This document shows, piece after piece, positions 2,578 to 64,000 of a stretch of DNA of 64,000 nucleotides. The notes under the pieces were generated by a model. That model saw only the letters and a program-made list of their open reading frames with translations, was not told the DNA's origin and made no database searches. Position 1 is the first letter of the stretch. The number at the start of each line of letters is the position of its first letter. The stretch lies in contig JARUPZ010000026.1 in assembly GCA_031213475.1 (NCBI GenBank), positions 186,001-250,000 of the forward strand, written 5' to 3'. The DNA is from Nereocystis luetkeana. Taxonomy: Eukaryota; Sar; Phaeophyceae; Laminariales; Laminariaceae. The translations under genes and the position numbers were made by a program.

Positions 2578-3440
2578 TAGTCTCCTACCCCCCCTGCTAG
2601 TATTACTGTAGTACTACGGTTTTTGTTGCGGCCGGCGAGATCCTTCGGTATCAGTACTCCATTTTATTTATTTGTGTGGCCGGAGACCCGTTGTACTCTG
2701 TCCCACCTTACTACTAAGGGCACGACTAGGGATGCGACGACCTCTCATGCTGGCGAGTACATGATCATGAGTGCATTCCTACGATTTTGTCGTAAGGTTT
2801 ATCGTGACCGCGTTTGGTGTGCGGTACCTGGTACTTGCTTTGGCGGTTTCGTGTTTAGTTGATATTTACGAGGTAGTACTGTAGTCCATGCCCGAAGGCA
2901 CGCGACAAGAAGAGGAAACAGCACACGACAGAATGGAAAACAAAGTGTTGTCATCGATAACTGGACGAAACACAAAATAAAATATTGGGATGTTAATTTT
3001 CATTTGCTTTTAGAGTATTCCCTGTTAATAGCCCCGGGGGGACTTCTGAGTGAAGAAATAATGTCGAAAAACGTTGATTATTGCAGCAGCATCGACCAAC
3101 TGTCCGGGCTGTTGGGGTAAGGGGTGTGTCGGAACTGCAATACTAGGAGCTGTGCGACCGCGTGCAGATTTATTATTACATTATACTAGTACGAGCGTCT
3201 GCTGTACGCTCGTACTGCTGTACGCTCGTACTGCTGCACGCTCTTCCTATCATTAGTCGCTTGATAACATGGCAATCGTCGATGCCTTATTTTTTGCTTG
3301 GTAGATTCGTACACATAAACCATAATAACCCCCGAAAAAAAGCAATGTCATTGAGGACAAACTTGTAGTAGTAAAAAAGTTTTTCACCTTTAGTTTTGGT
3401 CCACCCTCGGTACAAGTAGCACAGGGCACCTATTAATTAA
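2578..3440. other. No gene recognised; GTA-rich micro-motifs
   Basis: It contains TACTGTAGTAC (about 2607), TACCTGGTA (about 2825) and TACTGCTGTAC/CTCGTAC words (3190-3245), members of the short interspersed motif set described under findings. Confidence 0.5.
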
Positions 3441-3587
3441 TAATAAGAAACAGGAATTATGGTCCAGGCTGGATTTCTTATTCGAGATAGGGTGCTTGCC
3501 CCCCTATAATTTCAAGATGACGACTCCATAATTTCTCATTTTCCTCAAAATCTCAGCCTGGCTTTCTTATTAGCCTGTTTCTTATTA
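3441..3587. mobile_element. Small MITE, TIR TAATAAGAAACAGG
   Basis: 147 bp with perfect 14-bp inverted ends at 3441-3454 and 3574-3587. It contains a second inverted pair, CCAGGCTGG and CAGCCTGG. A related diverged copy lies near 24406-24540, and similar words occur near 24765-24870. Superfamily not assigned. Confidence 0.65.
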
Positions 3588-4090
3588 GGCGTCTTGTACC
3601 TGTATATATACATGTTTGCTCTTTTGCTGTGCCCTTGTATGTCGCTTGGCGGCCTGCCCGAAATGCATCATGGCCCCGGGATGGCCTCGCACAACGGATG
3701 GCCCACTTGTTTTGCGTGCAGCACTACGACAGCAGCAGTACTACTGCTGCTGTACAGCAGCACTACGAGTACTCTTCGCAACCTATCACAATCGCACAAG
3801 ATAAATAAATATGGAACAGAGTTTGTATCATCAGCGCCAGGCACCTCAGCACCGCCGTACCCGCTAACCAGTATCTGCGGCGGATCTCCTGCTGTGCGTG
3901 CCTTGTGCCTTACGTCGAGACCTGGTGCTGGTCTACTGCTGCTGTGAACTGTTGTGGTCTAACTGCTGTTTTGAGGGCTTCTTTGTGTGCGGTGTTTCGT
4001 ATTTAAAAATGGGTTTATAGTGGATTGGTTCTCGAGGCGTTCGGCGCCTGCACAAATATTTTTGCAGGATGCGCCTGCACATAGCGCGCG

Positions 4091-4155
4091 CCCTCAGATC
4101 CGGGGTCACATAGTGACATAGCAGGCTCTTCTCCCCCCTTCCCGCTACGGTACAT
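4091..4155 (-). mobile_element. SINE2 fragment
   Basis: It matches the inner part of SINE2 (AGATCCGGGGTCACATAG, then CCCTTCCCGCTACGGTAC). Compared with other copies it carries an extra TGACATAG next to GTCACATAG. Confidence 0.6.
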
Positions 4156-4364
4156 GCAACCGATGATGGTTTCCATTTATGTACTGGTATGTTTTTTTAC
4201 GAAACAGCAGCAAAGGATATCATTTACGGCTCCCATCTCCATGCGCACGAGCAGCGAGTATCGCTTGTCGTGGCAAAAACAGACAGGAGACAGGAGGGGC
4301 AGCCAAATGAAAGGGGTTGTTTTTTGTGGTTGGGGTGTTGTCGCGCAGCTGGTTTTATAGTTAT

Positions 4365-4935
4365 CATGTGTGTGGTGTGTGATCACCTGCCTGATCACGT
4401 GACAGCGCCAGAAAGATGAAGAAATGAAATTAATACACACTGGACAGAAAGACAACACAGAGGACGACCTGCACAGAGGACGACCCGGAGCTCTGTACCC
4501 ACTACGTCCTCCTGTACCAGAAACCAGAAGACTTGGGAGTTTTTTTAGAAGTATCAAATTTGACTGTTGATTCTGTTGATTCTTCTGCCGGATCCATCCA
4601 TGTCAAATATGAAATTCACAAAAAAAACAATTTTGTTTCCATCAATTTTCAAAGACTGAAGAAGTGCCAGTACCCAGTAGAAGTACTCCATCTTGTCTGC
4701 TGCCTGCCGCCTGCTCCTCGCGGCACATTTCTCTCCAGAGTATATTCGTCATGCTCGACAAGCACGGTGAGACAACTCTAAAACGCCATGGGAGGGCAGG
4801 CTAGCAGGCTAGAGTCGGCTAGGTGTTTGTCGGTGTGTGTTTGCGCTCCGGACACAATCTCGTCTCCAATCACCGTTTGTTTGTCCATCACCCCGAAAAA
4901 ATACCGTACCAGGTATAATAATAGACTACACACTG
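4365..4935. repeat. Repeat R1, copy 1
   Basis: About 550 bp related to 26275-26790. Shared blocks include CGCCAGAAAGATGAA, GAGGACGACCT, CGGTGAGACAACTC and GGCTAGCAGGCTAGAGTCGGCT. No coding frame is shared between the copies. Confidence 0.7.
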
Positions 4936-5044
4936 CTGCACACACTAAATTACTTGATTTTACCCTGTGTTCTGTCCAAATTTCTATCGTAGAGGGTAGA
5001 ATTTCTTTACCAGAATGAAGCTTGTCATCTGCTGTTGTTGTTTT

Positions 5045-5205
5045 GTGCTGTACGTACAGCTTTTCGCGCAACAATAGGCCGGTGTTCGAAGCTCGAAGCC
5101 CGTACTGCTGCTGCTGCTCTCCGCTGCGTAGCCTATAGCCTATACATCGCGAAATGGACCTTCTCCGTTGTTGATGCTCACACGAGTTTGGTGGCACCGT
5201 TTTAA
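5045..5205. repeat. Repeat R2, copy 1 (split by a MITE and a SINE)
   Basis: It matches 27880-28045: GTGTTCGAAGCTCGAA, CTCTCCGCTG, ATCGCGAAA.GGACCTTCT and GAGTTTGGTGGCACCGTTT. The match resumes weakly at 5309-5343 and clearly at 5560-5700 (AGAGCTCCAGGAAACGTC, TCGGGACGAAC). A piggyBac-like MITE and a SINE2 copy therefore landed inside this copy. Confidence 0.65.
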
Positions 5206-5304
5206 CCTCTTTAGAACTCCCGTCCCGTTTTGGAGACAAGGCACTCAAATTCCAAGTAATTTGTCCCCAATTGTCCCCAGAACGAGACTGCGGTCCTAAA
5301 AGGG
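5206..5304. mobile_element. piggyBac-like MITE with TTAA on both sides
   Basis: 99 bp with inverted ends (CCTCTTTAGAAC and TCCTAAAAGGG) and GTCCCGTTTTGG/GACTGCGGTCC inner words. TTAA flanks both ends (5202-5205 and 5305-5308). A TTAA target and ends starting CCC or CCT are known for the piggyBac superfamily. No coding capacity. Confidence 0.7.
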
Positions 5305-5356
5305 TTAAGCCCGTCTTCTTACTCTTACTATTTTACTATTATTAATACTGCTGTAG

Positions 5357-5559
5357 GACAATTCGATGCGAGTCGACGAGGGAAGAAAAGGCTGAAATCT
5401 TCTCGCGATAAAAAGGAAGGCACGTACTGTAGCGGGAAGGGGGTAGAAGAGCCTGCTATATGACCCCGGATCTGAGTTACGAGTGGGAAGGAGAGAGAGA
5501 AAAAGATGTGCAAAGATAAATCTCCGGAGTAAATGGGATGAGCAAAAAAAAAAAAAAAG
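5357..5559 (+). mobile_element. SINE2, 5'-truncated
   Basis: It lacks the tRNA-like head. The body (ATTCGATGCGAGTCGACGAG, then GGCACGTAC, then GGGATGAG) ends in an A-run at 5544-5559. It carries CTCCGGAGAT near 5520, which the copies at 27114 and 33779 lack. Confidence 0.7.
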
Positions 5560-5899
5560 TCCCACAGAGCTCCAGGAAACGTCTCTCACGTACCAGCATG
5601 TCTTCCCTTCCCGCGAGTCCCAAGTCCCAAGCGTCAGGTCTGCAAGAAAATTTCCCAAGATTTCCGTTACTTATCCTCGGGACGAACATCTACCATTGGC
5701 CGTACGAGCTACCTGGAACAACAGGGTATCTGGTAATAATAGTTGGTTACTTATTATTATTTCTACCGGTATATGCTTGGGACTTGTTACCTGTGGTCCT
5801 TGGTATTGCTGTACGTGCTGCTTGTACGAGTATGTATGCTGGTATGTCCCTCGTCCACACGGGTGGGCCGAGGAAGTCTGCCAGGACCTGCAGCGGTCT

Positions 5900-8800
5900 A
5901 GCGACAGTCACACGAACATCGAGCTTCGGACTACGTAGGTAGGGAACCTTGCGCGGTCCGGCTGGTGGCCTGCTCGCTTTAAGGACCGCGTGGGGTGGTG
6001 GTGATGTTTTTTCTTCTTAACCCCGACGCCGAGGAGTTCATCCCTCAGGCGGGACGGGTACATCACCACAGCAGAGAGCGCTACGTGGGCAGCCGGTGGA
6101 GTGGAGAGGCTGGCCACAGCGTGGGTATGCATGCACGACAGGAAGGATGGGATTGTCGGCGTGGGTTGGGACGGCTGCACCCAGCCAACGGGAACCAAGG
6201 CGCGTACCGGGCTACGAAACGGAGAGCCACTTTCGCCATAGCGAAAAAAAAGAAACAAAAAAAGAAAAAAAGAAGGCGGGGACGAGCCTCACGTCGGCTG
6301 GCAAAGAAAGCAGCACGCGAGGCTCGTAAGAGACAGAAGGAGGCACTTGTGACGGTAGCGACCTACAATGTGCGCACCCTGGCTGTAAAGGGGAAGAACG
6401 GGTACGGACATGACGAGCGGGTACTGGCGAAGGGACGGCAACTCGGCTGTGACTTCATTGGCCTGCAAGAAACTCGGAGGTCCGGCAGCACGACGTTCCG
6501 TGCGGCAGGGTATCGTGTTTTCTGTTCAGGACAGGAAACAACAGCCACCAGGCAAGGGCTGTACGGAGTAGGCCTAGCTGTCAAGGAATCGTTGTGCAGT
6601 AAGTCTGTGTATACTCATCAGTTCGTTGACGAGCGGCTAATGTCTATGCGCTTTGAGCTGGCTGGCAAATGCGAGGCAGTCAATTTCGTCGTTGCGTATG
6701 CTCCAACTGATTGTACCAAGGACGCCGAACTGAAAGGTATCTTCTGGCAGAAGCTGGAGTACTTGGTGAAAAAAATCCCGACGAAAGAGTGTCTGTTTGT
6801 ACTGATGGATGCCAACGCGCGAACTGGACAGAGGAAGGAAGGGTGCGGTGATGATGAAAGCAGAGTGCTGGGAGCGTATGGACGTGATGTTCGTAACGAT
6901 AATGGCAGACGGCTCCTGTCGTTCGCCACCAATTGCAAGTTGGCTCTCACCAACACGTTTTTCAGCACGCGCAAGGGTGGGATATCGCATACTTACAACG
7001 GCACCGGCCCGAATGACCGTAAGCGGATTGACTACATCCTAACCCGTCAAGTCCATCGACCTAGAGTACAAGATGCGAAAGTCGTCCCACAGCCTCCTGC
7101 CCCAGCTAAGGCTGACTCAGACCACAACATCTTGTATATTAAAGTCCGACTCGGTGGTCGTTTTGCGCCCAACAGACAAATACGTAGACCGACGAAACGC
7201 CGAGAGTTCGACAGGCAGCTTTTTATGTCCGATGGAAATTGTCGTGAACGAGTAGTCTCCAGGATCATCTCCACTCTCAACCAGCCTATCCAGCCCCGTA
7301 ATACGTCTGGTATGGTTGAGATTTTCACTGCGGCTGTTATTGATGCGGTCGAAAAAGAGGTACCACCCCCTGCACGTCGCCACCGCAGACATGGATGGTG
7401 TGAGTCTGCCGAAACCTTGGCCGCATTCATGCCAGCATGGACAGCGAGGGAGGATGCACGACAATTCTTGCGTGCCCACCCCCGGGACAGAACCGCGTGG
7501 AAGACCCTGAGATCTGCGTGTGCGAACCTGCAGAAGGTGATTGCCGCAGGACTGCATGCGTACTTCGAAGCGTACCTTGCCGAAACCGAACGACTCCTAG
7601 CGAACAACGACCAAAGAGGCTTTTACAAGCACCTTAAGAGTACGGTAGGATTGGAAGGGACTAAAGCGAGGAGCGAACAGTTCATTAGGGACGAGGATGG
7701 CACGATCCTACGGGATAAGGTGCGAATTCGTGAACGATGGGCGGGGTTTTATCACAAACTCTTGAACACGAAGTCGCTGAAACTCGATCCCACGATCATC
7801 GACCTCTTGCCACCGCGACCGCCTAAACTGTCGCTTGAAGATGAACCATCCATAGACGAGATGACCGAAGCACTGAAGGGGATGTCGAATTGGAAAGCTG
7901 TCGGGCCAGATGGTCTCCCGGTCGAACTCCTAAAAATCGACCACCCGGCATTCGCCCAGCGCTTTCACAACATCCTTGTCAATGTTTGGTTAACAGGAGA
8001 AGTCCCTCAGCAATGGAAAGATGCGATCATCAAGGTCCTTCACAAAAAGAAGGATCGAACTGACTGCAACAACTATAGAGGGATCTCGCTTGTTGCCCAC
8101 GCAGGCAAAGTGTTGTTGAAAATCGTCGCGTCCCGCCTCAGCAACTACTGCGAGACCGAGGAACTACTCCCCGAGGAACAGTGCGGCTTCCGCCCCGCAC
8201 GATCAACGATTGATATGTTGTTCGTCGTGCGCCGGCTGCAAGAGCTCGGACGACAGAGGAAAATCCCCTTATACGTGTGCTTCATCGATCTGCAGAAAGC
8301 GTACGACTCTGTCGACCGAGAGCTGTTATGGAAGGTACTCACACGCTTTGGCGTACCAACCAAGATGCTGAGAATTATCCGTAATTTCCACGATGGCATG
8401 CGGGCTCGCGTGCGTACTGATGACGGCGAGCTCTCGGAATGGTTTGATGTCACGCAGGGGCTGCGGCAAGGCTGTGTACTGTCACCGTTACTGTTCAACG
8501 TGTTCTTCGCTGCTGCGTTACACGTCGTACTAGTACGCTTCAGCCAAGACGAAGCCATTGTAAGGGATTTGGTCCAACTCTTGGAAGCTGGAGTAGTTCG
8601 AACAGGGAAGGAGGAGCCATTGGCGTGCGTGCGAAGGTCTGTATGGGGCATGTTGTACGCCGACGATGCAGGAATTGTCTCGAAGTCGGCTGAAGGGCTC
8701 GCAAAAATGATGACAGTCATCGTGACTGTCTTCGAAGCAGCAGGCCTCACGGTGTCGGAAAAGAAGACTGAGACAATGGTCCTACAAACACCAGACCGGA

Positions 8801-9815
8801 CAACCCTCGCACCACCGCTCGTCATCGAAGCGGCAGGTCAGAGGTATAAGCAGACGACCCAGTTCTTATACCTAGGCGGCGTTATCCACGAAAACGCTGA
8901 CCTCTCGCTCGAAATCGACCGACGGATCCGCCTCATGCGAGCATGCTTCAAACGGTTCGGCCCGGAGTTGTATGATAGGACGACCGCCCCCCTTAGCCTT
9001 AAAGTCCGAATGCTGAAGGCCGAGGTGATTGAGACCCTGCTGTACGGGTGTGTGACGTGGACCCTCAGAGCGGAACACTTTGCCAAGCTTCGAACGGCTC
9101 ACCACCAAGTCCTGTTGCGAGTCATTGGCTTCCAGCGCCGACTTCGTACTGACCATGCCACCCTCTCGTACGCGAAGGCCCTCAAGATGACACGTTGCGA
9201 GAGCATCGAAACGACCATTCGCAAACGGCGGCTCTTCTTTGCGGGGGGCGTGGCACGGCAAAGCAAGGAGCGATTACCCAATCGGGTAATGCTCGGGACG
9301 ATAGCTGGTGGGGAGAACCCGAGACCAGGCGGACAGTGTAAGACTTGGCATAGATGCATAGTCGAAGACCTTAGGGAGTTCCGAGCCACCGAAGGGTCAA
9401 CGGAAGTTGCCCCCTTGGTGTTTGGAGTTGAGACCGCGTTGTGGTCCACAGCAGCCAAAAAGGCGGGGAAGTGGTACCGGGGGATCCTTGAAGCAGCCGA
9501 ACGGTTCATGGTGAGGTGGCACGAGGCTGAGGCTGAGATGAGTAGACAGCGCCGCGCATCCGCCGTGGATGGTGCCCAAAGGAACGGGGGGGGAGGGGGC
9601 AACAGGAGAAGTGGCATAAAGCCCGACCGAGTGAATGCGGAGAGGGGGGGGAACAGGAGGGGTAGAAGGGAAACGGCGGTAGACGAAAGTAGGAAGGAGA
9701 TGGCAGACAGGGTAGCAAGGCACCAAGTCGACTAGGAAGTAGAATATGACCATACTACTAGTGCTACCAACTGGTGCAGCTGGCTCGAACGTGGTCTTCC
9801 CTTGTCTTCTCTTTT

Positions 9816-9854
<39 letters not shown>
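5900..9854 (+). mobile_element. Apparently complete LINE (RTE-like)
   Basis: It comprises the LINE ORF, about 80 bases of 3' UTR and a T-run of about 37 bases at 9818-9854. The 5' boundary is not clear; sequence before about 5700 belongs to another repeat. No target duplication could be assigned by eye. Confidence 0.7.
6004..9735 (+). CDS. LINE ORF: APE endonuclease plus reverse transcriptase
   Basis: A single uninterrupted frame of 1243 residues from the first ATG. Residues about 65-115 are very basic (KKKKQKKKKRRRG), which suggests nucleic-acid binding or nuclear import. An apurinic-endonuclease-like domain follows: TYNVRTL (120), LQETR (154), LMDANARTG, RIDYIL and SDHN (372). The reverse transcriptase has WKAVGPDGLP, FIDLQKAYDSVDRELLW (760), RQGCVLSPLLFNVFF (823) and catalytic YADD (885-888), then a C-terminal region with LLYGCVTWTL. 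This order (EN, RT, no RNase H seen) fits the non-LTR retrotransposons; the closest style is RTE-like, though the clade is uncertain. No stop or frameshift is present, so it is young or recently active. Codons upstream to 5995 are open but lack ATG. Confidence 0.93.
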   Translation: MFFLLNPDAEEFIPQAGRVHHHSRERYVGSRWSGEAGHSVGMHARQEGWDCRRGLGRLHPANGNQGAYRATKRRATFAIAKKKKQKKKKRRRGRASRRLAKKAAREARKRQKEALVTVATYNVRTLAVKGKNGYGHDERVLAKGRQLGCDFIGLQETRRSGSTTFRAAGYRVFCSGQETTATRQGLYGVGLAVKESLCSKSVYTHQFVDERLMSMRFELAGKCEAVNFVVAYAPTDCTKDAELKGIFWQKLEYLVKKIPTKECLFVLMDANARTGQRKEGCGDDESRVLGAYGRDVRNDNGRRLLSFATNCKLALTNTFFSTRKGGISHTYNGTGPNDRKRIDYILTRQVHRPRVQDAKVVPQPPAPAKADSDHNILYIKVRLGGRFAPNRQIRRPTKRREFDRQLFMSDGNCRERVVSRIISTLNQPIQPRNTSGMVEIFTAAVIDAVEKEVPPPARRHRRHGWCESAETLAAFMPAWTAREDARQFLRAHPRDRTAWKTLRSACANLQKVIAAGLHAYFEAYLAETERLLANNDQRGFYKHLKSTVGLEGTKARSEQFIRDEDGTILRDKVRIRERWAGFYHKLLNTKSLKLDPTIIDLLPPRPPKLSLEDEPSIDEMTEALKGMSNWKAVGPDGLPVELLKIDHPAFAQRFHNILVNVWLTGEVPQQWKDAIIKVLHKKKDRTDCNNYRGISLVAHAGKVLLKIVASRLSNYCETEELLPEEQCGFRPARSTIDMLFVVRRLQELGRQRKIPLYVCFIDLQKAYDSVDRELLWKVLTRFGVPTKMLRIIRNFHDGMRARVRTDDGELSEWFDVTQGLRQGCVLSPLLFNVFFAAALHVVLVRFSQDEAIVRDLVQLLEAGVVRTGKEEPLACVRRSVWGMLYADDAGIVSKSAEGLAKMMTVIVTVFEAAGLTVSEKKTETMVLQTPDRTTLAPPLVIEAAGQRYKQTTQFLYLGGVIHENADLSLEIDRRIRLMRACFKRFGPELYDRTTAPLSLKVRMLKAEVIETLLYGCVTWTLRAEHFAKLRTAHHQVLLRVIGFQRRLRTDHATLSYAKALKMTRCESIETTIRKRRLFFAGGVARQSKERLPNRVMLGTIAGGENPRPGGQCKTWHRCIVEDLREFRATEGSTEVAPLVFGVETALWSTAAKKAGKWYRGILEAAERFMVRWHEAEAEMSRQRRASAVDGAQRNGGGGGNRRSGIKPDRVNAERGGNRRGRRETAVDESRKEMADRVARHQVD

Positions 9855-9984
9855 CTCTCTTGCGCTGACTCTCCGTGATTTTCATTTCATTTTTTCTCTT
9901 CCTCTTCCTTTTCTGATTGATAAGCCGTACTCAAGGAGCCGTGTGGCGTGGTTGGAAGACGAACCTGCTCTGCTCGGCTCGTAT

Positions 9985-10265
9985 TGTCTGACGCCAAGGG
10001 GCTGGGCATAGTTGACGAACGCAGGGCGGAGACGGCAGTCTGGGTAGCAAGGTACCAGGCGGATTAGCAGGGAGAACCTGGCTATACTACTCGTACCACA
10101 AGCTGCTGCCGCCACCTAGAAGGTGCTTTGGGCTTTGGTCTGCCTGTTATTTCCCCTTTGTTATTTTTCCTTGTTACTTTCTCCTTGGTTCTTTGTCTTA
10201 CTCTGTTCACAAGCAGTGGTGTCTTTTGTTATTTCTTCTTTTTTCCAGCTCGTTCTTTTTCAAGT
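9985..10265 (+). mobile_element. 5'-truncated LINE copy (3' end only)
   Basis: Positions 10012-10110 align with the end of the LINE ORF and its 3' UTR (9678-9775). Shared words include GGGTAGCAAGG and ATACTACT.GT. T-rich sequence follows. It lies head-to-tail behind the full LINE and keeps only its last bases, as expected from incomplete reverse transcription. Confidence 0.65.
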
Positions 10266-10384
10266 GTAGGCCACCTCGCCTGCGGGGGGGGGGGCACGAC
10301 AGATTGTTTCTCTTAGATTTTGCTTTCATTTTTCTTCTTTTTCTTTTTCGACTTGTCTACCTTGTTTTGTTTTCTCTTTGATTG

Positions 10385-10870
10385 TTTCTTTTCGTTTCAC
10401 TATTTCATAGATTGCGTATGTCGTGCCTGTCGTATCTAGTATGATGACATGGCTTTGCATTGCCCACTGCAGTTCACACTGCACACGTGGCAACGTAGTA
10501 TCTCTGTGGCGTAGCTTTGTGACCACAGAACTTGTATCTCTTCTAGGATGGAAGAATCGGCACGGACACTGGTTGTGCTGGATGTCGACGGGTAGAAAGA
10601 ACGGTTTAATGTGAAGAACACACACACACACACACAGCAGCGCAGGCAAGGCAAGGTGCAAGGCAAGGCTGAAGGTGTGTGTTCTTGAAACCAAACCGTT
10701 CTTCTTCCTACCCGTCGACATTCGAGCATTCCAGCACAACCAGTGTCCGTGCCGATTCTTCACAGCTGACAGCTGACGTATTTCATAATTTTATAAAATC
10801 ATAGAGCAGGGAGACGTATCATCATACCAAGCTGTGTGGTCACAAAACTACGCCACAGCAGAGATAATGC
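10385..10870. mobile_element. Foldback element A, pair 1
   Basis: Left arm about 10385-10620, right arm 10677-10870 inverted. Each arm has CGGCACGGACACTGGTTGTG, GTCGACGGGTAGAAAGAA and an inner CA-repeat. The outer part has TATGATGACATGGC and TGTGACCACAGAAC. The inner spacer is GCAAGGCAAGG-like. It has no coding frame. The two arms could fold into a long hairpin. Class and transposition enzyme unknown. Confidence 0.7.
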
Positions 10871-10884
10871 TTTGTTCCATATAA

Positions 10885-11478
10885 GCAGAGTGGGTACGTG
10901 AAAGGTGACAGGCCAGTTTGATCTTCTTGACGCTCATTGCCTCATTGCATTCTGTAGGCACACTCCAGCTACGTTTCCTATGTTTCTGGGCTCAATTCAA
11001 CAATTAGTTGCGTTTCTTATACAGTAGTTCATTTCTTTATGTTTCTATCAATCGCTGCAGCTTCTTATCCCAGCGAATTGTCAAAAATGATCTCTCCTCA
11101 GGCTGTTTGTCCGCTCTCATCTCATCCCAGACCAAATACTAAATTAATTAATACGACCTGGTACCTGGTATTAATATGGCGCCGTCCGTGGTGGCTTGGT
11201 AGGTGGTTGGTCCGCGTCCCCATCAAGATCAATTTCGTGGGTTCAAGTCTCACCGATTGCATGCTCGTAGGGGCTTTTTCTTGCATAGAAAATTGATTGT
11301 TAATGGCGGAAAGCGCAAGAGCGTGAGTTATTAGGCTGGAAAGTAACAGTGACTGATTAAAACAAAAGAAAAAAGAAAAAAAAGTAGGGATTTTTCTGAG
11401 CCGTGATATTTAATAGCTGGCGATTGTTTTTCCATCATAGAATTGTGTGCATGAGAATTATAGGGATCATCTCACATC
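10885..11478. repeat. Repeat R3, copy 1 (host of a SINE)
   Basis: It matches 28945-29300: CGCTGCAGCTTCTTATCCCA, GCGAATTGTCAAAAA, GATCTCTCCTC and TCTCAGACCAA. The match is interrupted by a SINE1 copy (11179-11384), then resumes with GAGCCGTGAT and TTTTCCATCAT. Position 12215-12370 may be its continuation beyond a hAT insertion. Confidence 0.65.
11179..11384 (+). mobile_element. SINE1 (tRNA-derived), shortened copy
   Basis: The tRNA-like head has an A-box-like GTGGCTTGGTAGG (11191-11203) and a B box GGTTCAAGTCTCACC (11239-11253). The body lacks the central domain seen in other copies. It ends in an A/G-rich tail. The sister R3 copy near 29215 has no SINE here, so this is an insertion. A pair of CCTGGTA words lies just upstream. 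Confidence 0.75.
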
Positions 11479-11485
11479 TCAATAC

Positions 11486-12097
11486 TAGAGTTGCACCCCG
11501 GCCTCGAAATTTGGAACCGGGTACCCGACCGGGTGGGGGGCGGTTGAGGCGGAACCGGAACCGGGTACCCGGGCCCCGGAAGACACGGGTACCCGGGTAC
11601 CCGGGTTACCATACACTTTTTGCCCCCCTTTTAGCGTTTCAGCGGCGGCGGATGAGGCGGACAGGGGTATCTGGGTACCCGGGTACCCGAGTACCCGGGT
11701 TACCATACACTATTTGCTCCCCTTTTTGCGTTTGAGCGGTGGCGTGGTAAGGCGGACACGGGTACCCGGGTACCCGGGTTACCATACACTATTTGCTCCC
11801 CTTGCAGCTTTGGAGCGGCGGCGTGGAAAGCAAGGCAGCTAATTAATAGGGGTATTCTCTATTCTCGGTCTGTAGTCTGCAGGGGCGAGAGGCGAGAGTC
11901 TAGACGCACAGCCACTGCAGTGTAAATCAACGTATACCCCAGTCTGGGCCTCCGTATAGAACAATTGACGGGTGCCCGGGTACCCGGGGTACAAATACCC
12001 GCGGTTCCGTGAGTTGGACCGGGGCGGTTCCGGTTCCGACGGTTCCAGGTACCCGCCACCGGGTACCCGGTTCTCAGTCAGACGGGGTGCAACTCTA
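11486..12097. mobile_element. hAT-A, non-autonomous hAT element, copy 1
   Basis: 612 bp, ends TAGAGTTGCACCCCG (11486-11500) and its inverse ending at 12097. A perfect 8-bp target duplication CTCAATAC lies at 11478-11485 and 12098-12105. Terminal TAGAG and an 8-bp duplication are hAT hallmarks. The interior holds tandem units of about 90 bp with CGGGTACCCGGGTACC, TTACCATACACTATTTGC and GAGCGG.GGCG. It encodes no transposase. Confidence 0.88.
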
Positions 12098-12214
12098 CTC
12101 AATACCGTACTGCTAGCTGTAGACACATTCAAGGCTCCGCTTACGTACGTACCGGGTAAGCGTCATGTTTTCCCAAAAGAAAGTAACTATTGAATATCTA
12201 AAATTACAGAGCCG

Positions 12215-13870: not shown

Positions 13871-14556
13871 CTAGCAGGAGATGTACTGCAGGGGGGGAGA
13901 TGGGGACCAACGTGGAGAACTACTAACTTGGACGGATCGTCTAGGTCGTTGGAACACCCGGGTACGCCTTTCCCAAAGTCTCTTCGCCGGGGGGTGTGAT
14001 GGGTGAGTGGAATATTACCAGTATACCAAGTATTACTTGTGATATACTACCTGGTAAACCGGTATGTTTAACATCCTGGAAGAGTGAACGACGATTCGGA
14101 ACAAAAAAAGGGATTGGATGGTGGTTTGTTTTTATTCTTGGTTTGTGTAGTGACAGTCTTTTTTTCTTCTTCTGTTGATTTTTTCATGGTGGTTTTATCA
14201 GGAACATGGGTTTTCAAACGGCTGAAAATACGAGTTCCTCGCTCTCGTCTGCGGTGTTTGCCTCAGCTTACGGAATACGTGAAACAATTGAACAGCAGCA
14301 GCAGCAGCACAGCAGGGCTTGCTTGTCCCCGAGCCGGACTAATCTTCAACGTTCGGAATATCTGTAGGCATTCGTTTGGGAGGCATTATGAAGTTGTGCA
14401 CCGCAACTCGTGTGCGATGTCGGAAGCTTTCCTGCGACAGGCTGCCGATTATACGTGAGGCTGTCGGTTGGGTCAGTTGTGCTGGATGCCCCTCACCGCC
14501 ACCGGCTTTTGCTGCTCTTGTAGGGTGATGGCTGTCAGTTCATACTACGCCGAGAA

Positions 14557-14578
14557 GGTTAGGGTTAGGGTTGGGGGT
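14557..14578. repeat. Interstitial telomere-like TTAGGG repeat
   Basis: It contains GGTTAGGGTTAGGGTTGGGG. Similar tracts occur at 15688-15720 and 20697-20720. These are too short to be a chromosome end. Confidence 0.7.
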
Positions 14579-17150: not shown

Positions 17151-17266
17151 TTATTACGGGGGACCGTATCAAATAGGACCTGCGGTGCATACGAAAACCT
17201 TTATATTTCGTTATTTTTACTATTATTAGCAATATTTGGTCCTATTTACTGTGGTCCCCCGTAATA
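17151..17266. mobile_element. TA-flanked MITE, copy 1
   Basis: About 116 bp with inverted ends TATTACGGGGGACC and GGTCCCCCGTAATA, and inner AATAGGACC/GGTCCTATT. The interior is AT-rich with AATATTTGG. TA lies at both ends, which fits a Tc1/mariner-like or other TA-targeting origin. Confidence 0.75.
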
Positions 17267-17962: not shown

Positions 17963-18189
17963 TTTCTTGATCCGCGAACGGCCCTGGTAGTTACGTCATT
18001 ACGTCATTACCGATTCCAGCTGAATGTCACGACCGCTCCCCATTGCCGCTACCGAAAACATGGCAAGGCTTGTAAACGAAGGGGATACATGCTTGTCATC
18101 CCCGGTCTAGGAAAATCGGTGTCCTTTTGTATATACCAGGTACTGAAGCCGACGATTCTGTGATTGGAGAATGAAACAGGATTTGCCAG

Positions 18190-55704: not shown

Positions 55705-55979
55705 AGCCCCGAGCAAACATTCCCGTGCGAAGGCCTTCTGGGTATAGCAAAAAAACATAGTCACGACGACTAGTCTGTGGGAGCTGACTGGTGCGCTGGA
55801 GGGTACGCCTGCGGCGGGAGGTGTGAGTCACGAAACCCCTTAGTCCCGGGGATGGGTCCTACTTTCCTGGTATCTCCATAGTCATGGTCGGGATTTATAT
55901 CTTGCCTACGTTGTCCTGGTCCTCATTCCCTGTTCTAGTTATAGCCGCGGAATATTATTTCATGCTCGTCACTTGACAG

Positions 55980-56132
55980 GGTTTCGACCGCACGGAGGCG
56001 TCCAAGGCGTGGCTAACTAACGACCCTAGCGCTTTACATCCTGTATTTGGAGTGGCTAGAATCGAGCTGGAACCGCGTATAGGCAAGAAAGAAGAGGTGG
56101 CGGCGTGTTTTTGGTTGGTTCGACGAAGGTGA
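55980..56132 (+). CDS. Exon-like segment, unknown
   Basis: Acceptor ACTTGACAG ends at 55979, then an open frame of 50 codons to TGA at 56130-56132 with FDRTEASKAWLTNDPSALHP and GVARIELEPRIGKKEEV. It lies only 275 bases past the sulfotransferase stop. It could be an alternative 3' exon or part of the next gene; direct joining from exon 6 does not give a long frame. Not recognised. Confidence 0.3.
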   Translation, partial: GFDRTEASKAWLTNDPSALHPVFGVARIELEPRIGKKEEVAACFWLVRRR

Positions 56133-57600
56133 TGCTTATGTGCTTAGGAACACTGCGAGAAACTCCTATTAATAGGAAAGGAAGTTTCCCAAGCAATCCG
56201 GGAGAGGCTTACCCAAGCTTTTTCCAGAGGCGATTCTCTCGGTGCTCCCATCTCGCCAAAAACACACGCTGCCGACGGGATCGTGATGTGCACGGGGTTT
56301 AGTAGACGTAGAGGAGCGTGTTTTTACAGGCTTGGGTGTAGATCCGGTACAGGTGTCTCGCATGACTTTCTTCGTCGGACTAGCCTTGTTGTGATTGACT
56401 GGCAGCTCTTACTGTCGCCGGGTTCCCGTTGGCCATTGCGAGCGGCAATTCGCAATGTCTCGATTCGCGCGCTGTACAAACGATACAATAGCGGTACGTT
56501 TGGCGTCGGCGGAGTACTTTTACTCCCCGTTTTTTTTTTTGGTTGTTTTTGTGCGTGTTAGGTTAAGCCTGTGGTCGGATGTAAATTAAATACGTCGCTT
56601 TTGGTAACTTTTCTTGCGAACAATAGCTTTATGTTGTATTGTTGTATGCTACATGCTACCTGGTACATTGTTTTTTTTTTTAACGTGTTGACGCGATGCG
56701 CGACCTAATTTAAGCCTGCATGGAGACTTGGGTGAGAGAAACTAACCAAACCATGTGACAGCTATATATATGATATACCAGGGTATATGTATATATATAT
56801 AATATATATATATATATGCTATATATATTATACGGCACCGGCAACACAAATTCCCGTCTGCTGGGATCGCTTCGTAGTGGGTGCTTAATTTAGCGCTGGA
56901 GCTACAATGTGAGTAAACGCACTGCACGGCACGCGCGAAGGGTGATGCCGATCGCACTACTCTTGATCGGTCATCGCTTGCTGAGGCCGCTCTTATTTTT
57001 TATTCTGGTTGCTATATCATACCAGGTATGCTTGAAGTATACCAGTAGCCAAGTAGATCGGGTTATGCCGACATTGAGGCCTCTGTAACGCCGCAGGTAT
57101 TGTTTTTTTAAATCTCTCTCCCGGGACCACTCTGGCCGGGAATATAGTAAACGTTTAGAACCTGAATTCAACATTGAAATGTTTTTATTTTCCTGGCCAG
57201 AGTGATACCAGGCATGCACTAGGTGGAGGAGGGGGGAGGTGAACGAGCCCTCCTACTACGAAGTATGAGGTATTAGCTACCCAGCAGCTTATCTTCGTTG
57301 TTCAGCTTGATTCGATTCCTGCTTGCGTCGTTCGAGGTTCGGTTGAGAGCCTGGCATTCGGTGAATGAGGCGTTGTGACGCGTTCTACGATAGAGGTATA
57401 TCACATTTCCGCTATTATATTTTCTGAATGACGGGGTTCCTTAACCCAAAATCGTCGGATGGCCAATCTTGTTTCGAAAAATGACGGTTTTGTAGACTGG
57501 GGCATGGGATTCATAGGGATGCAATTTGCTTTTCGCTGAAGTCAGTTTTCGGGTGAGGTATGGAATTCCTCAAGTGAGGAGCTTCAGAATTTTTAGGGGG
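56133..57600. other. No gene recognised
   Basis: It contains TA arrays with TACCAGGGTATA (56760-56830) and an inverted CTGGCCAGAGTGATACC/CACTCTGGCCGG pair (57127 and 57193), but no supported coding segment. Confidence 0.45.
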
Positions 57601-57643
57601 AACCTCTATCGTAGAACACCTCTTGTTGTGCCCTCTTATGCAG

Positions 57644-57730
57644 GCGTTGATTGTGTCCCTCTTGCAAGAGGATGCTTCCGCCCCTCATATGCAGAAGGCA
57701 CAAGGCGAGGCGAGCAACAGCTACAACCAA
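57644..57730 (+). CDS. Exon-like segment, unknown
   Basis: 29 whole codons between an acceptor (CTCTTATGCAG) and a donor (GTACGC), encoding ALIVSLLQEDASAPHMQKAQ then GEASNSYNQ. Balanced composition and both splice sites argue for a real internal exon. The family is not recognised. Confidence 0.3.
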
Positions 57731-57939
57731 GTACGCGTACGTGACATTCTAAAGGACCCGCAACATCACACGAGTTGTTTCAAGCCTATCACGCATTTTT
57801 TTGTCGACCCCGAACGCCGATCGCCACATCTAGCTACTCGAATTTCACGTTAGGTGATACCATACTGGCCGCCTTCAACAGCGGAAGAGGGTGACGTAGC
57901 CATACTTTTAATTTAAGTCGTCCTAGAGCTGGCGCTGGC

Positions 57940-58665
57940 GGTGAAAATTTGTCCCGACCAACGACGGACAGTACGGCCACTCTGGCACCCGAGCGTCTCG
58001 TGGTCCGTCGGTGTTCGGTGCATTTAATACCTGGTGGATGTTTTTTCTCAGAGAACAAAAAAAAAACATCGATTGTTTTACACGCTTTGCGTTTAAGATC
58101 TTCGGCTGGCTCGTTCTTGCCGGAGAGCGACGGTGATTCGGAAGAGGTCTATCACAGCAGCTTGTCTTTGTCTCGAGATTGCTCTCCCGCAGGTTCTCAA
58201 TAGTGGTCGAAGTTGATAGAAATTTGGGGTGCTCCAAATGAGACGAAAAACAACCCCTGACTGAACGTTTGCACACCACTTGCAAACGGTTACAGCTCCT
58301 CACGGGAACCTACAGCCCGCAAATTTAGAGGGATGCTCCCGATAGGGGGTGTGTGAGGGCGTCGGGTGCGCCAGACGGTAGTCGCAGCCAGCCAGAAACG
58401 ACTCACTAGGTGTCTTCGTGTACTCATAGTTGCGAGCGAATAGAACAAAAAAAAACCCAGACCTCTAAAATATGCGTTTCACATAAATGATGATAGCGCA
58501 ATGGCTACATCAAGGATGGGGAAATGGCCGTCACTAAAGGATTGCTGTTCTCCCGGGCGGATGGTCTTTTTCGAGTCGTCGCCGAAAATGCTGCGGAAGG
58601 CAAAACTACGTTCCCGCGAAAGGTATTAACAGTAAGTTATTGGACCCTAAAAAGGGCCAGAGGCC
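57940..58665. repeat. Repeat R4, copy 2
   Basis: Sister of 35190-35965. At the site of the CGAGTA units it reads AGGTATTAACAGTAAG. It has a TACCTGGT word near 58028, where copy 1 differs. Confidence 0.75.
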
Positions 58666-58809
58666 TGAACGTGGGCATACGTGTTTGGTCGTCGGAAGTT
58701 TTGGATGTCTCAAGACCGAAATACCCAAAACACGCAAAAACGGAAATCTCTGGCGGAAAAAAACAATCAAGAAAACCCCGTTCCGTAGTGGGTTACAGGG
58801 GTTCATGAA

Positions 58810-61800
58810 TCATGTGTGACAAAATTCAGGGTCCATCTCCAAAACAACGGCGTGGGAATTGGAGGTGAACTCAGTTTGGGGTGTGGTATAGGCCTGAACC
58901 AGCCCGTAGTCTGTCCTTAGGTCTGCAGATTGCTACCTCATGTCTCAGCACTGGACTCATCTCGGTGTGTGTCGTTTCTGGGCTTTGTCCGCTCGCTCAA
59001 CCTTGTTTGTTGCTTTGGGCGAGTTAGTTGGCTTTTTTGGTTCTCGCGGTGGTGACTGATGGATGTGGTCGTTAGGAGACGCTCTCGGGGTAGATGTCCG
59101 GGTCTCCTAGGTTTACTGTAGTTCCACTTTTGACCTAAGGAAGTATGCGCGCTGTGGTACCCGCCCATCGTCCCGCGCGCCTCGTGATGAGACTGGCGAC
59201 GCCAATATATGTCAGCGTATCGTGGAGCAATCCCCGCCTTTCATCTTGTCGTGGTTCAGATGTCTCCGCGCTCGGCACTTGCGTAGACGCCAGCCCAAGA
59301 GGGCCTCCGTCATACGTACCAACCTCGGCACTAGCAAATATGAATATCGCTGTTCCGCATTCACTTGAGCTCCGTTACCAGGCCTTAGTTCCGTCCCTCC
59401 ACCTACCGCTGCCGTTCGCTTAGGTTTGCTCCACCCCTCACCTGCTTCAAACTAGCCCGACGCTACAAGCGTCTTTGCCACTGCCGTCCAGTGATCCAAA
59501 CAATCAGCGATACATTGTTGCTCTGCTGCGATAGACACGTCTCGCCTGTGACCCTCGTCGCCCTAGCCTCTCTACCGCTCACAAACATCAAGACGATGAT
59601 TGGCCAGATCCTTCGCAGGAGTGAGAACTCTTCTTTGTACCATGTTTGGTTCCGCGCCGCGGTTTCTCCGACCTTTCAAGATCGCCTGCCTGCCACCGCA
59701 CGCAATACAGACGCTCCAAACGCAGTTTCCATCATGCTAGCCTCCATCACTACACGGCCGAGCTTGGCTGAATGCAACTCAGGCGCCCCTGCCCAGCTAC
59801 TAGGTAGCATCTTTGTCCTCTGCTGGCGTATTGTTGGTGGTGGGTGGCGCGTCGCTCGACCACTTGATTGAATGATGCCGTCGCGCAGCCACGGCTCCAT
59901 GACTCCGGCGAGCTTAGTCACCGGGGTTCAGGCTATGCGTTTTTTCGGCGCGGTCGCAAGCGACACGTGTCCTGGAAGCACCGCCGCAACGACTGCCCGG
60001 TACCCATCAGAGGTCTGAGGCAGGAGATACGACACTATCCTTTTTTGTTCCTTGATACGGCATGCCCCCCTCCCGCTGAACCGGCTTGTCTACGCCCGGA
60101 ACTTCTCAACGACCACCAGCTCTTACCGCAGCAGTAGCAACCGCATTCGCTAGTGCGGACCGCATTCGCTAGTGCGGTGCAATGCCTCTGGAAGGCGAAG
60201 GCACGACCGTTCAGGCACTCTCTGCTTTGAACGAAGAACTCCCAACCGTTACGGGGAAGGAGGTCGCACCAGTGGCATAGCTCCCCGCCGTCTATGCAGC
60301 CGCAAAATAAGAGTTAGCTCCAGCTCGAGGTCAGAGATAGACCCATCGGGCACCAGCAGTCGAATTCATGGTCGGCTTCAGGTGCGTGCGCTCAGGTCTT
60401 CGCCCGGGACATCATTATTGCTGGACGGTGTCGCAACGCCCAAGCCTCCCAGACATGAGACACCACGTCTAGTGGACGACCCCCAGCACGCGCATATATA
60501 TGTCTACCTTATGGGTGCTGATTGACGACGACGTCGTCCTTGAGTTAGCGTGCATGCGCACCAAACCACGGACTATTCCGTTGCACCATATCGCAAGCCC
60601 GCCCGTGCTGCCGCCATCCTGGTCGCATGAGTCTATATTGGTCCCCGCCGGACGAAGGCTACGGTAGAGGGGATCGCTTTCGCGCCTTTCGTCTAGCGGC
60701 TCAGACCCACTCGGCGGAGATGTTACACTACCTGGTACTACTTAGATATTTAGATATGCGTTTATCACTAGTTTTGTTTGGTGATATGCCCCGCCATTGA
60801 ATGGTGTGTTATGCTATTCCCAAACACACAAGCAAGGTCCGACTTTGGGTGATAACCAGAGCGACTGGCCCGAGTGATCTATAAACGCGGTAGGTAGTGG
60901 AAATGGGGGTAGCTTCCCTACCACGGCACGGGTCGGGGCAGAGCACGTCTCGCTCCTGTCATTTATCTTTCGCTCGACAGAGTCGATGCCGCCCAACAAT
61001 TGGCGTGAATCATCCACTCCCGCTTGCCGGCTTGATGCTTCTTGCGAGCGACCATTTATAGGGCTCGTGTTTGGGAGCTACCGCTTCGCCATACCAGGTA
61101 TTTTGTTCCTTCCCTATCGTGCGCAACAAACGCTCGGTCGTCGACCTCGCCTGTGTCTTCACAATGAGCAGTTAGTTCAAGCAGGTAACGCGGAGCCTTG
61201 ACAACATAACTAGCACGCCCAACGCGTTTCAGCTGCTGCTGCACCTCCTAAGGTGATGGTCGCAACGCAATATCTGCTAAACGACACAAGCCATTTAGTG
61301 GAGCTTGGGGCTCCTGTCGCTGACGATTTCCACGCTTCCAGTGTTTAGTTGTTCGAATGTCTGCGCCAACGACTGCATTCTGCCCCCGTACCTTGCGATG
61401 GTCTTATTTACACATATCCCAGATCAGCTTGATTGAGCACTTAGTTCCCTGGTCTCATGAATTAACTAAAGTGTATCCGGTTAAAGTTCGCCGGCTTGTG
61501 ACCCCCACTTTTTCTCGCTAATTTTTAGAGTTATAAGGCGAAACAACGTCGGCAGGAACCGGGGTTGAGAGTAACTCAAATCCGGTGTCAACTTATCGTT
61601 TGAAAAAATGGGCCACTTTCGAGAAAAAATGGCCCGGATTTGGGAGGGGAAAAAAACTCGACTTTTTGCATGTGTTTTCTTCCCTGTATGTGGTAACATA
61701 GAATATCTACCTGGTACAGGGATGTATCATAATTAGTGTCACCCTCTCCAGCATGACCAGGTTGCTGCGCACCTCCAGGGGGAGACGGTGGTGTATGTGG

Positions 61801-61920
61801 CTCCGAATCGATTCTTCCGCAGGTGGAACAAGTCTCGAGAACCGTCCACCAGCTACTCTGCCGCGCGCTTAGCCTTGGCACCCCGAGGACGCCCATCCCT
61901 CTTCATTGGCTTGTGTTTGT
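58810..61920. other. Unidentified, possibly decayed element
   Basis: GC-balanced sequence in which several frames look protein-like for short distances without intact ORFs. It includes a tandem 20-bp hairpin word (CCGCATTCGCTAGTGCGG at about 60138 and 60158). Family and age cannot be assigned. If it is an old element it is broken in many places. Confidence 0.3.
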
Positions 61921-63660
61921 GCATGGGTGTGTTATAGAGTGTGTTGAAGGGTGTTTATGTCTGTACAGCCAGTAGTTTGGCTCTCTCTGTGTCGCTCTGA
62001 AACTTGGAGCGGCGATATCTCGCTCATATTTGTTTTTTCACAAAATGTAAAACACTCCCATGGGTGCAGGTCCCATTGGCCCGATTCCGATGAGTTTTCG
62101 GGATCGTATGGTCAGTTGTTTGCACATAAAACGAAACACATTCCTCCCCATATTAAGGTTTTCTGTCATGTTCTCTGCCAAAACCCGGCAAAGAAGAAAA
62201 CTTTTCACTTGACATAAACCTGGTCGGCGACATCTGTTCGAAGCCGGCCTGAAAAACAAAAAATGGACCCCACGTCAAAACCAAACAAAATCACCGAAAA
62301 CATTCACTGATAGTGCGAATATCTCGCCAGCAACAACAAAAAACGATAGCTACAAAATATCCGCCTGAAACAGAGCATTTAAGAGGTGTATCCCATGACA
62401 CCAAAGGGGACGTTCTGTCGTCCAGGATAATTTCTTACTATACGTATGGTGAAATGATGGCAAACACTTAACCGGATGGACCATACAGTCAGTATATACG
62501 TATACACCGGGCAATTCATCTACAACGCCGAATTCCTTTGGATCGACGCTACGTAAATAACCTTATCTATCTACTGTAGTCTTTCAAATAATAAACTTCC
62601 CACTGTGCGCGGCGAAACCTAGGTTAAACCACACCCCTCGCGGACGTCCTGTGGTTCGCTGTACTTTGTAGTCAGCACTACTTCTTTCACACGTGTCCTG
62701 TGTCCTTGCTCGGGGCCTTGGTTGCGAGTTAATATGTATTCGACGAGTCGACAACAAACATGCTGCTTGCCGATAGTACACCCAGCATCCCATCAAGCGT
62801 ATGGGGCGTAAGCTCAATGCCCTCGCAACACGGGACACACCTCTAATCTAGACCACCACCAAGATGCACCACACTCTTTGTCGATCAACAGGTTCAGCCC
62901 AAAGCGCGTGTCACGGTGGGGGTAGCACCTACCTGTTGTTTATGAGGCTCTCACTTACTTCTCACCTGAGGAGCTTCATGCTTCGCCCAAAAACTGACGT
63001 TTTGAGGACATATTTAACCCGACCACCGATTCCACGGCCTTGGTCTAGCTGCTAGATCGAATCTTACTCTGCAACACAAATGAGATACGGTGTACTTTAA
63101 TTCCTCTGTTGAGGAGCTTCGTCACTCTCAATCACAATTATTTCGGCAAAAACGTGCTGCCCGTCATTGCAAAGTTCTCCCATCGTAGCACGCGCCGGAA
63201 ATCAAACAGTCCCAGTCGGAAATCAGCCGGACAGATTTCAAACTCCAGTCGTTCAGGCGTTGGGCCCCCCGTTTGTTCTAACCATTTTGGATTGGACCAA
63301 ACGCTGCCATCGATCAACCGCATCTCCGACCAGCCTGGGAAAATTCAAACTTCTGGACCTTTGTCGAACCGCACGAAATAGAGTTGTCGCTCATTTAACC
63401 ACCAGCACCTGTCACGCGGGCATACACTGGTAGAGCCATACGGCGGAGCGGCAACCTTGCCCCCCAGCGTGGCATGACGGTACTGTACTGTGGGGAAATT
63501 CGAGTTCCCTAGAATCGATGGTTGTGTTGGCTCAAAATTTCTGCCATTATTGTGAGTGAGTGCGCAAGGGGCTGACGGAAGTAGTCCCCACGTACATACA
63601 TACCTGTCCCGCTATCCGAACACTGTCACTACGCGACATCACTAAATGGGAATTCATAAT
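61921..63660. other. No gene recognised
   Basis: Short frames only, without recognised motifs. Confidence 0.4.
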
Positions 63661-63665
63661 TTCAG

Positions 63666-63793
63666 GCTCGAGTGTAGACGAAGAAAAGAAAGCGGTCAAT
63701 GTTGTACTGAAGTTGGAGAAGGACACCCCGTCTTGCATATTTTTAGAGCCTGGCGCACCCGAGCTCGGAGAAACCCCGGGAAGCTGTAGATAG
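63666..63793 (+). CDS. Terminal exon-like segment, unknown
   Basis: Acceptor TAATTTCAG ends at 63665, with an open frame to TAG at 63791-63793: SSVDEEKKAVNVVLKLEKDT then PSCIFLEPGAPELGETPG. It could be the end of a gene starting near 56-58 kb. Not recognised. Confidence 0.3.
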
Positions 63794-64000
63794 AGTTTTT
63801 TTTTTATTGTCGAACAGGGGCAAGCCGATACGGGCACCTGGCCCGCGTGGCTCGATACCGAAAACGTATCAAAATGACGCCATATACCAGGGTATCGCAA
63901 TGCGTGGCCCACCTCACAGTATCGAGCACACATCAAAGTCGGTACGTAATATCCATGACACTCGACCAAGGTTCAGAGCCTGCGAATAATACAGTAAAAG

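Follow-up and report, generated by a model that had tools for sequence, protein, structure and literature searches.

TA-flanked short words in a 64-kb stretch of the Nereocystis luetkeana genome, likely excision footprints of TA-target transposons

Why should the word CCWGG stand dozens of times between two TA dinucleotides in a short piece of an algal genome? The question is raised by a 64,000-nucleotide stretch of the brown alga Nereocystis luetkeana (GenBank assembly GCA_031213475.1, contig JARUPZ010000026.1, positions 186,001 to 250,000), here called the window, in which TACC(A/T)GGTA (TA-CCWGG-TA) recurs together with three other TA-flanked words, TTAA, CGAG and CTGCTG. Judged from the sequence, these words are likely to be footprints left by the excision of cut-and-paste transposons, from several TA-target families working in the manner of Tc1/mariner elements. 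Observed directly are the word excess, the requirement for TA, differences between repeat copies at a limited number of sites, the presence of several different words at one TA, and miniature inverted-repeat transposable elements (MITEs) with TTAC ends.

Abundance of the words and their dependence on TA

Exact counting on the plus strand gave 37 copies of TACCWGGTA in the window, 19 of TACCAGGTA and 18 of TACCTGGTA. The first-pass annotation had spoken of dozens, and all 15 of the positions it named lie within 2 bp of a real site. Its statement that chance would supply far fewer was also borne out, with an expectation of 0.71 from an order-2 Markov model (0.60 with the sites masked from the model) and a mean of 0.7 and maximum of 3 in 60 order-3 simulations, in which the commonest TA-N5-TA word of any kind never exceeded a count of 6. 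These expectations and simulations rule out chance as the source. The excess requires TA on both sides: XY-CCWGG-XY occurs 37 times when XY is TA and 0 or 1 time for each of the 15 other dinucleotides, and CCWGG regardless of its flanks is near expectation (155 seen, 131 expected). The centre base of TA-CCNGG-TA is W in 37 cases and S in 2. Single-base variants of the nine-base word number 37 where 13.7 are expected, suggesting that recognisable CCWGG scars, whose density is about 0.6 per kb, have changed by some 6% on average and hence would have been made over a long period, although part of these variants may be alternative footprints. Two variants with one extra G have four sites each, TACGAGGTA at 2867, 32706, 46222 and 52022, and TACCAGGGTA, reverse complement included, elsewhere in the window.

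The other words are in excess as well. The expectation for TA-TTAA-TA is 0.40 and 21 were seen, with 14 against 2.0 for TA-CGAG-TA and 8 against 0.2 for TA-CTGCTG-TA/TA-CAGCAG-TA, so that the four kinds total 80 words in 64 kb, or about 1 per 0.8 kb. TA-TTAT-TA (with ATAA) and TA-TATA-TA occur 29 and 34 times, at least partly as microsatellite; among words with flanks of at most 67% AT there are 19 TTAA, 17 ATAA/TTAT and 11 TATA, and TTAA is therefore not alone among AT words. The CTGCTG word is weak because CTG microsatellites are common in the window. Two further candidates were rejected. Eight of the nine sites of TACCCGGGTA sit in two copies of one GC-rich repeat, and CTATTAATAG, earlier taken for a 10-bp word of its own, proves where a sister copy is visible to be TA-TTAA-TA within a C-TA-G target (the carrier reads CTTCTATTAATAGG, the sisters CTTCTAGG).

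The words are also clustered, with 15 of the 79 neighbouring pairs among the 80 words no more than 40 bp apart; when TAs were chosen at random, 2000 trials averaged 4.8 such pairs and never exceeded 14. CCWGG is nested in CCWGG three times, and CGAG in CGAG and TTAA in TTAA are also found. Since footprints would restore or create TAs, later elements could land in or next to earlier scars, which would produce such nested and chained words. One nested CCWGG pair is the centre of a 38-base palindrome (40004-40041), whose two flanks mirror one another in a way that a simple footprint leaves unexplained.

The sites are as follows (no strand is assigned unless given).

2825-2833, TA-CCWGG-TA
4907-4915, TA-CCWGG-TA; sister at 26756 with TA-TTAA-TA at roughly the same position
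11162-11170, TA-CCWGG-TA, chained to TA-TTAA-TA
14048-14056, TA-CCWGG-TA
17462-17470, TA-CCWGG-TA
18134-18142, TA-CCWGG-TA
18934-18942, TA-CCWGG-TA
22966-22974, TA-CCWGG-TA
24582-24590, TA-CCWGG-TA
24643-24651, TA-CCWGG-TA
24963-24971, TA-CCWGG-TA
26431-26439, TA-CCWGG-TA
26950-26958, TA-CCWGG-TA, absent from 5/5 aligned sisters
33579-33587, TA-CCWGG-TA
34507-34515, TA-CCWGG-TA
37389-37397, TA-CCWGG-TA, absent from 1/1 aligned sister (alignment weak, T-rich)
37510-37518, TA-CCWGG-TA; two sisters without, two with (one as CTGG)
38235-38243, TA-CCWGG-TA, repeat position identical to 37510
39369-39377, TA-CCWGG-TA
40015-40023, TA-CCWGG-TA, nested pair, member 1
40022-40030, TA-CCWGG-TA, nested pair, member 2
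40101-40109, TA-CCWGG-TA, nested pair, member 1
40108-40116, TA-CCWGG-TA, nested pair, member 2
40206-40214, TA-CCWGG-TA
40279-40287, TA-CCWGG-TA
44259-44267, TA-CCWGG-TA
45083-45091, TA-CCWGG-TA, within TA repeat
45434-45442, TA-CCWGG-TA
48517-48525, TA-CCWGG-TA, nested pair, member 1
48524-48532, TA-CCWGG-TA, nested pair, member 2
49765-49773, TA-CCWGG-TA, within MITE, absent from 2/2 aligned sisters
52029-52037, TA-CCWGG-TA
56657-56665, TA-CCWGG-TA
57020-57028, TA-CCWGG-TA
60729-60737, TA-CCWGG-TA
61092-61100, TA-CCWGG-TA
61708-61716, TA-CCWGG-TA
26987-26995, plus strand, TA-CCCGG-TA; other copies at this repeat position have TA, a CGAG-type or a 10-base word
26141-26148, TA-TTAC-TA (GTAA on plus strand), repeat position of the TTAA at 33054
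5340-5347, TA-TTAA-TA, chained to TA-CTGCTG-TA
11169-11176, TA-TTAA-TA
13439-13446, TA-TTAA-TA
24572-24579, TA-TTAA-TA
25832-25839, TA-TTAA-TA
26756-26763, TA-TTAA-TA; sister is the 4907 copy
31101-31108, TA-TTAA-TA
32819-32826, TA-TTAA-TA
33054-33061, TA-TTAA-TA; several sisters with plain TA
33212-33225, TA-TTAA-TA-TTAA-TA nested pair
34254-34270, two TA-TTAA-TA, then TA-CGAG-TA
37297-37304, TA-TTAA-TA
38195-38202, TA-TTAA-TA
38217-38224, TA-TTAA-TA, absent from 2/2 aligned sisters
39772-39779, TA-TTAA-TA
41968-41975, TA-TTAA-TA
48733-48740, TA-TTAA-TA
51525-51532, TA-TTAA-TA
56167-56174, TA-TTAA-TA
3764-3771, TA-CGAG-TA
5825-5832, TA-CGAG-TA
10088-10095, TA-CGAG-TA (CTCG on plus strand), scored common to the site and its single sister
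28523-28530, TA-CGAG-TA; two sisters without, one tie
28920-28927, TA-CGAG-TA
32810-32817, TA-CGAG-TA
34269-34276, TA-CGAG-TA
35909-35922, TA-CGAG-TA-CGAG-TA nested pair
37099-37106, TA-CGAG-TA
37879-37886, TA-CGAG-TA
41962-41969, TA-CGAG-TA, chained to TA-TTAA-TA
48611-48618, TA-CGAG-TA
49993-50000, TA-CGAG-TA
3213-3222, TA-CTGCTG-TA, within short tandem array
5346-5355, TA-CTGCTG-TA
17600-17609, TA-CTGCTG-TA
19609-19618, TA-CAGCAG-TA
28065-28074, TA-CTGCTG-TA
28863-28872, TA-CAGCAG-TA
40091-40100, TA-CTGCTG-TA
41279-41288, TA-CAGCAG-TA

The short tandem array (3190-3243) has a 16-base unit in which CTGCTG alternates with CGCTCG, each TA-flanked. Arrays of CGGTGCGGTTCGGTGCGGTTTT-like units lie at 21597-22011 and 24078-24324, and a short TTAGGG-like stretch at 20692-20725 adjoins a TACCAGG.

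Insertion or inheritance: sister repeat copies

Repeat families were found by self-comparison of the window, and the words were then compared across aligned sister copies. An alignable sister was present for 7 of the 37 CCWGG, 4 of the 21 TTAA, 2 of the 14 CGAG and 0 of the 8 CTGCTG sites. None of the seven CCWGG sites was common to all its sisters, one of them (45083) being uninformative as it lies in a TA repeat; the words therefore do not occupy equivalent positions in all copies at any testable CCWGG site. Where a sister could be aligned, the difference was usually an addition of the word plus TA, some sister having a single TA, as the first-pass annotation had described; the words at 26950 and 49765, absent from every aligned sister, agree with it, and the TTAA at 33054 is missing from four sisters and present in two. 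At the other 30 CCWGG sites insertion is presumed from the word itself. The direct evidence comes from a limited number of sites, most of them within a single repeat family, F1, with these copies.

10395-10634, plus strand, F1 copy, no words at compared TAs
26779-27060, plus strand, F1 copy with CTGG, CCAGG and CCCGG words
32940-33153, plus strand, F1 copy with TTAA word
37401-37668, plus strand, F1 copy with CCTGG and a 10-base word
38057-38296, minus strand, F1 copy with several words
26082-26210, minus strand, F1 copy with TTAC and a 10-base word
near 28082, F1 copy covering the last part of the repeat only

At the F1 TA in TTGTATCT, CCCGG, a 10-base word and a CGAG-type word (its first TA reading GA) are found in one copy each, and plain TA in three; a more distant F1-like copy at 10763 (minus strand) differs at TTGTATCT and was left out of the count. 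Similarly, the F1 position CTTCTAGG carries TTAA, TTAC and a shortened TATAATA in one copy each and TA without a word in three, and the two members of the repeat pair 4907/26756 carry CCAGG and TTAA respectively. Three different words and a plain TA at one repeat TA argue for separate events, and the idea of one ancient inherited word position is contradicted by the sister copies wherever these are informative. Two 10-base TA-flanked additions in F1 copies, at 26165 (minus-strand copy) and 37529, both end in TGTTG before TA.

Candidate parent elements and known systems

If the words are footprints, insertion would have duplicated TA, as the sister copies suggest, and the transposase, on cutting the element out, would have left both flanks with a 3' overhang made of the first four or five bases of the terminal inverted repeat. 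On the model of Sleeping Beauty, these identical overhangs would anneal imperfectly and be sealed by end joining into TA-overhang-TA. CCAGG could pair with itself at four of five positions and CGAG at the two outer ones; TTAC could do so only at its central TA, and trimming of the mismatched 3'-terminal C followed by fill-in would yield TTAA.

For TTAA and TTAC a candidate parent is present. Scanning the window for TA-anchored inverted repeats (at least 12 of 14 bases paired, up to 4 kb apart) revealed a MITE family, again without assigned strand.

17152-17266, MITE, TA-TTACGGGGGACC...GGTCCCCCGTAA-TA, candidate parent of the TTAA/TTAC words
33699-34079, MITE copy, same ends as the 17152 MITE
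49706-49892, MITE copy, TTACGGGGGACC-type ends with one left mismatch, inserted in ATAC-TA...TA-GTAT

Five of the six ends are exact and one has a single mismatch, and all three copies stand between TAs; position 20831 has a more distant relative. The TTAC/TTAA words correspond to the ends of these elements. For an overhang of four bases the self-annealing set of TTAC (TTAC, GTAA, TTAA, GTAC) is found between TAs 28 times against 1.66 expected, a 17-fold excess. Sets taken from the MITE end at lengths 5 and 6 gave 13 against 6.5 (2.0-fold) and 4 against 3.7 (1.1-fold), and those at lengths 2 and 3 gave 121 against 53 (2.3-fold) and 15 against 5.7 (2.6-fold), both blurred by AT microsatellites. 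One F1 copy has TTAC at the TA where another has TTAA. The flanks of TTAA sites favour T-A-C before the TA and G-T-A after it (23, 25 and 24 of 42 flank positions), a preference that the flanks of the 49706 MITE match. A second TA-flanked inverted-repeat family, with ends GAGTTGCACCCC, is a 0.6-kb element with two inverted copies 92% alike (11486-12097 and 25086-25714) and internal GGGTACCC arrays.

No parent of CCAGG, CGAG or CAGCAG was seen in the window, nor was the TA-target transposon with ends beginning CCW that had been proposed as a source; among 22 larger insertions listed between repeat copies, none had CCAGG ends. One-sided remnants give some indication of the end, in a test devised after the data had been seen. 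TACCAGG without a following TA occurs 23 times (100 simulations: mean 8.4, sd 2.6, max 15) and TACCTGG 10 times (mean 5.8, sd 2.3, max 12), a difference with a two-sided binomial p of 0.035. Should repair occasionally lose one side, the tip left behind would read as the element's own end, and from the excess of TACCAGG the end of the CCWGG parent is probably CCAGG.

How far are such words known from other systems? The first-pass annotation knew of no described element of this kind. That does not hold for TA-CGAG-TA, which equals what we take to be the 6-bp Minos footprint, CGAG plus TA, and the underlying logic is that of Sleeping Beauty C(A/T)G; it does hold for the five-base CCWGG, which is unmatched. 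Literature searches yielded no description of TACCAGGTA or TACCTGGTA as a footprint, the matches listed looking unrelated by title, as did those listed for TACGAGTA. A Tc1/mariner-type footprint is described as an overhang flanked by target duplications, C(A/T)GTA in Sleeping Beauty (PMC3878927), with lengths of 2-4 bp given for the group (PMC7913693), a range that includes the four-base TTAA and CGAG but not the main word, CCWGG. The TA duplication on both sides is found here in the specificity for TA against 15 other dinucleotides and in the plain TA of alignable sisters. Sleeping Beauty and Frog Prince share with the window the TA target and a TA plus self-annealed overhang with an A/T centre (PMC3878927); they differ in that the window word has five bases where theirs has three, and in that the window, with scars at its high density, shows no CCAGG-ended element and no transposase in the parts scanned. 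The putative CCWGG parent would behave like a Tc1/mariner element in its excision and is not assigned as a member of that family. Minos, a Tc1-like element of Drosophila hydei, leaves 6 bp on excision (PMC10992017), a likeness to the 14 TA-CGAG-TA sites, but the 45 TACGAG of the window without a following TA show no common inverted-repeat continuation by eye. Short TA-flanked inverted-repeat elements like those at 17152, 33699 and 49706 are reported as Tc1/mariner MITEs, for example as many non-autonomous copies in Ectocarpus, in a paper whose main text does not contain the word footprint (PMC12477816). The piggyBac elements are cut-and-paste elements that share the letters TTAA, but they target TTAA and excise without a footprint (PMC3878927), whereas empty sister sites in the window read CTTCTAGG and have no TTAA; membership was rejected on this ground.

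A long interspersed nuclear element (LINE) reading frame at 5983-9732 (plus strand; 1250 codons without stop, endonuclease and reverse transcriptase domains) served as positive control for frame-wise Pfam scanning; apart from the LINE, the scanned parts of the window gave no Pfam domain, and none of the 80 words lies inside this 3.75-kb frame. No tRNA genes or Rfam families were found in the window. A dispersed repeat resembling a tRNA-derived short interspersed nuclear element (27504-28614, 34852-35168 and 11177-11330) has an A-rich stretch at one end and a stretch that we take to be B-box-like; two copies face each other within 27504-28614, and ARAGORN found no tRNA gene in the repeat. Searches of viral contigs gave 0 matches with the F1 core, 0 with the MITE end and 0 confirmed relatives with the LINE protein. 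The nested word TACCAGGTACCTGGTA had one match, in a contig of 35% GC (L001), taken as chance because the 10,409 bases available of this contig have TACCWGGTA only as the two overlapping sites of the match.

Weighing of explanations and significance

Several results weigh against reading the words as footprints. Among the TA-anchored inverted-repeat pairs there is no CCAGG- or CGAG-ended element, and neither the 23 TACCAGG nor the 45 TACGAG without a following TA have a common continuation by eye. One-sided CGAG exceeds CTCG by 45 to 28, which is not significant (p = 0.06), with simulated values of 34.9 (sd 6.2) and 30.9. Pfam scans (E up to 0.01), which covered six frames of 9701-54702 and a single frame of both 1-15000 and 54701-64000 and could miss weak relics, detected no transposase domain; this absence lowers only the claim of Tc1/mariner family. 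The five bases of CCWGG fall outside the 2-4 bp given for Tc1/mariner footprints (PMC7913693). Four words were scored common to their single sister, at 10088 (CGAG), 18989 (CCGG), 26756 (TTAA) and 26762 (TTAC); CCAGG is the word carried by the sister of both 26756 and 26762. Indels between repeat copies, a proposed check, gave word additions in guided alignments, but in an unguided count of 46 events TA (6) was not singled out from GT (7), TG (7) and AC (5), as tandem duplications and gap placement blur the count. The CTGCTG words, none with a sister copy, may be partly of CTG-microsatellite origin. Only one of three MITE copies, that at 49706, has the flanks preferred by TTAA, the other two being without the full preference. 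Words predicted from the GAGTTGCACCCC ends are not enriched at lengths 4-6, so that one of two testable families passed; this family may not be excising. Finally, the 19:18 ratio of A to T centres was dropped as a sign of mismatch repair, being uninformative because the orientation of the word is arbitrary.

Excision footprints nevertheless remain the best-supported form of what the first-pass annotation proposed, on account of the TA-flanked additions, the polymorphism between copies, the different words at one TA and the MITE ends that predict one word; the CCAGG parent and the transposase are the parts not found where scanned. It is unlikely that the words are instead complete insertions, with an enzyme joining oligonucleotide-sized pieces, such as transposon tips or abortive products, into TA and no large element at most sites. 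Such an activity would suit the 37 CCWGG scars without a visible parent and the landing of words in each other's TAs, yet nesting is also expected from repeated visits to a TA, TTAA has in the window a full-length MITE whose ends are those predicted, and footprint formation is established and requires no new enzyme activity.

We consider it very improbable that the words were not inserted and are instead a conserved binding motif, or a word akin to a microsatellite, that drift or selection has spread. The overlap of CTGCTG and AT words with microsatellites and the four sites shared with a single sister would fit this, but sisters have plain TA at the same position, three different words occur at one TA, and the sisters of the CCWGG sites 26950 and 49765 weigh against it. 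There is very little to recommend the idea that the scars stem from TA-bounded germline DNA removed imprecisely in a programmed or somatic process, like the internal eliminated sequences of ciliates, despite the TA boundaries and very high density. Ciliate-type elimination normally retains a single TA without any constant word, unlike the constant words and second TA seen here, and a GC content of about 50% with an open 1250-codon LINE frame would be unexpected in a processed ciliate genome. Templated or microhomology-driven insertion during break repair, or slippage, without transposons, the other source named in the first-pass annotation, is hardly credible, for while the two 10-base TA-flanked words and several tandem duplications resemble ordinary repair products, repair would not yield one short list of words at dozens of TAs, with CCWGG in excess only between TAs.

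What sets the window apart, if excision footprints are the right reading, is density: 37 scars of the commonest kind have no visible parent, and 80 words of four kinds compare with three clear MITEs of one family and a distant relative. It is conceivable, though doubtful, that scars and not elements are the dominant dispersed repeat, left over a long time at about one per 0.8 kb by a few very mobile TA-target families, themselves rare, at least one of which has an unusual 5-base stagger; taken to its extreme, this idea would have TA-CCWGG-TA arise by insertion of seven bases as one unit, with no full element involved. A transposase cutting five bases inside its end is what the CCWGG form points to; were there no parent, however, the 7-base unit would represent a novel type of insertion. 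If scars occur genome-wide at the density of the window, they would account for many 6-8 bp indels that distinguish repeat copies or strains from one another, and would provide a readable count of past excisions, unobtainable from element copy number, as well as a natural record of how the host joins identical overhangs.

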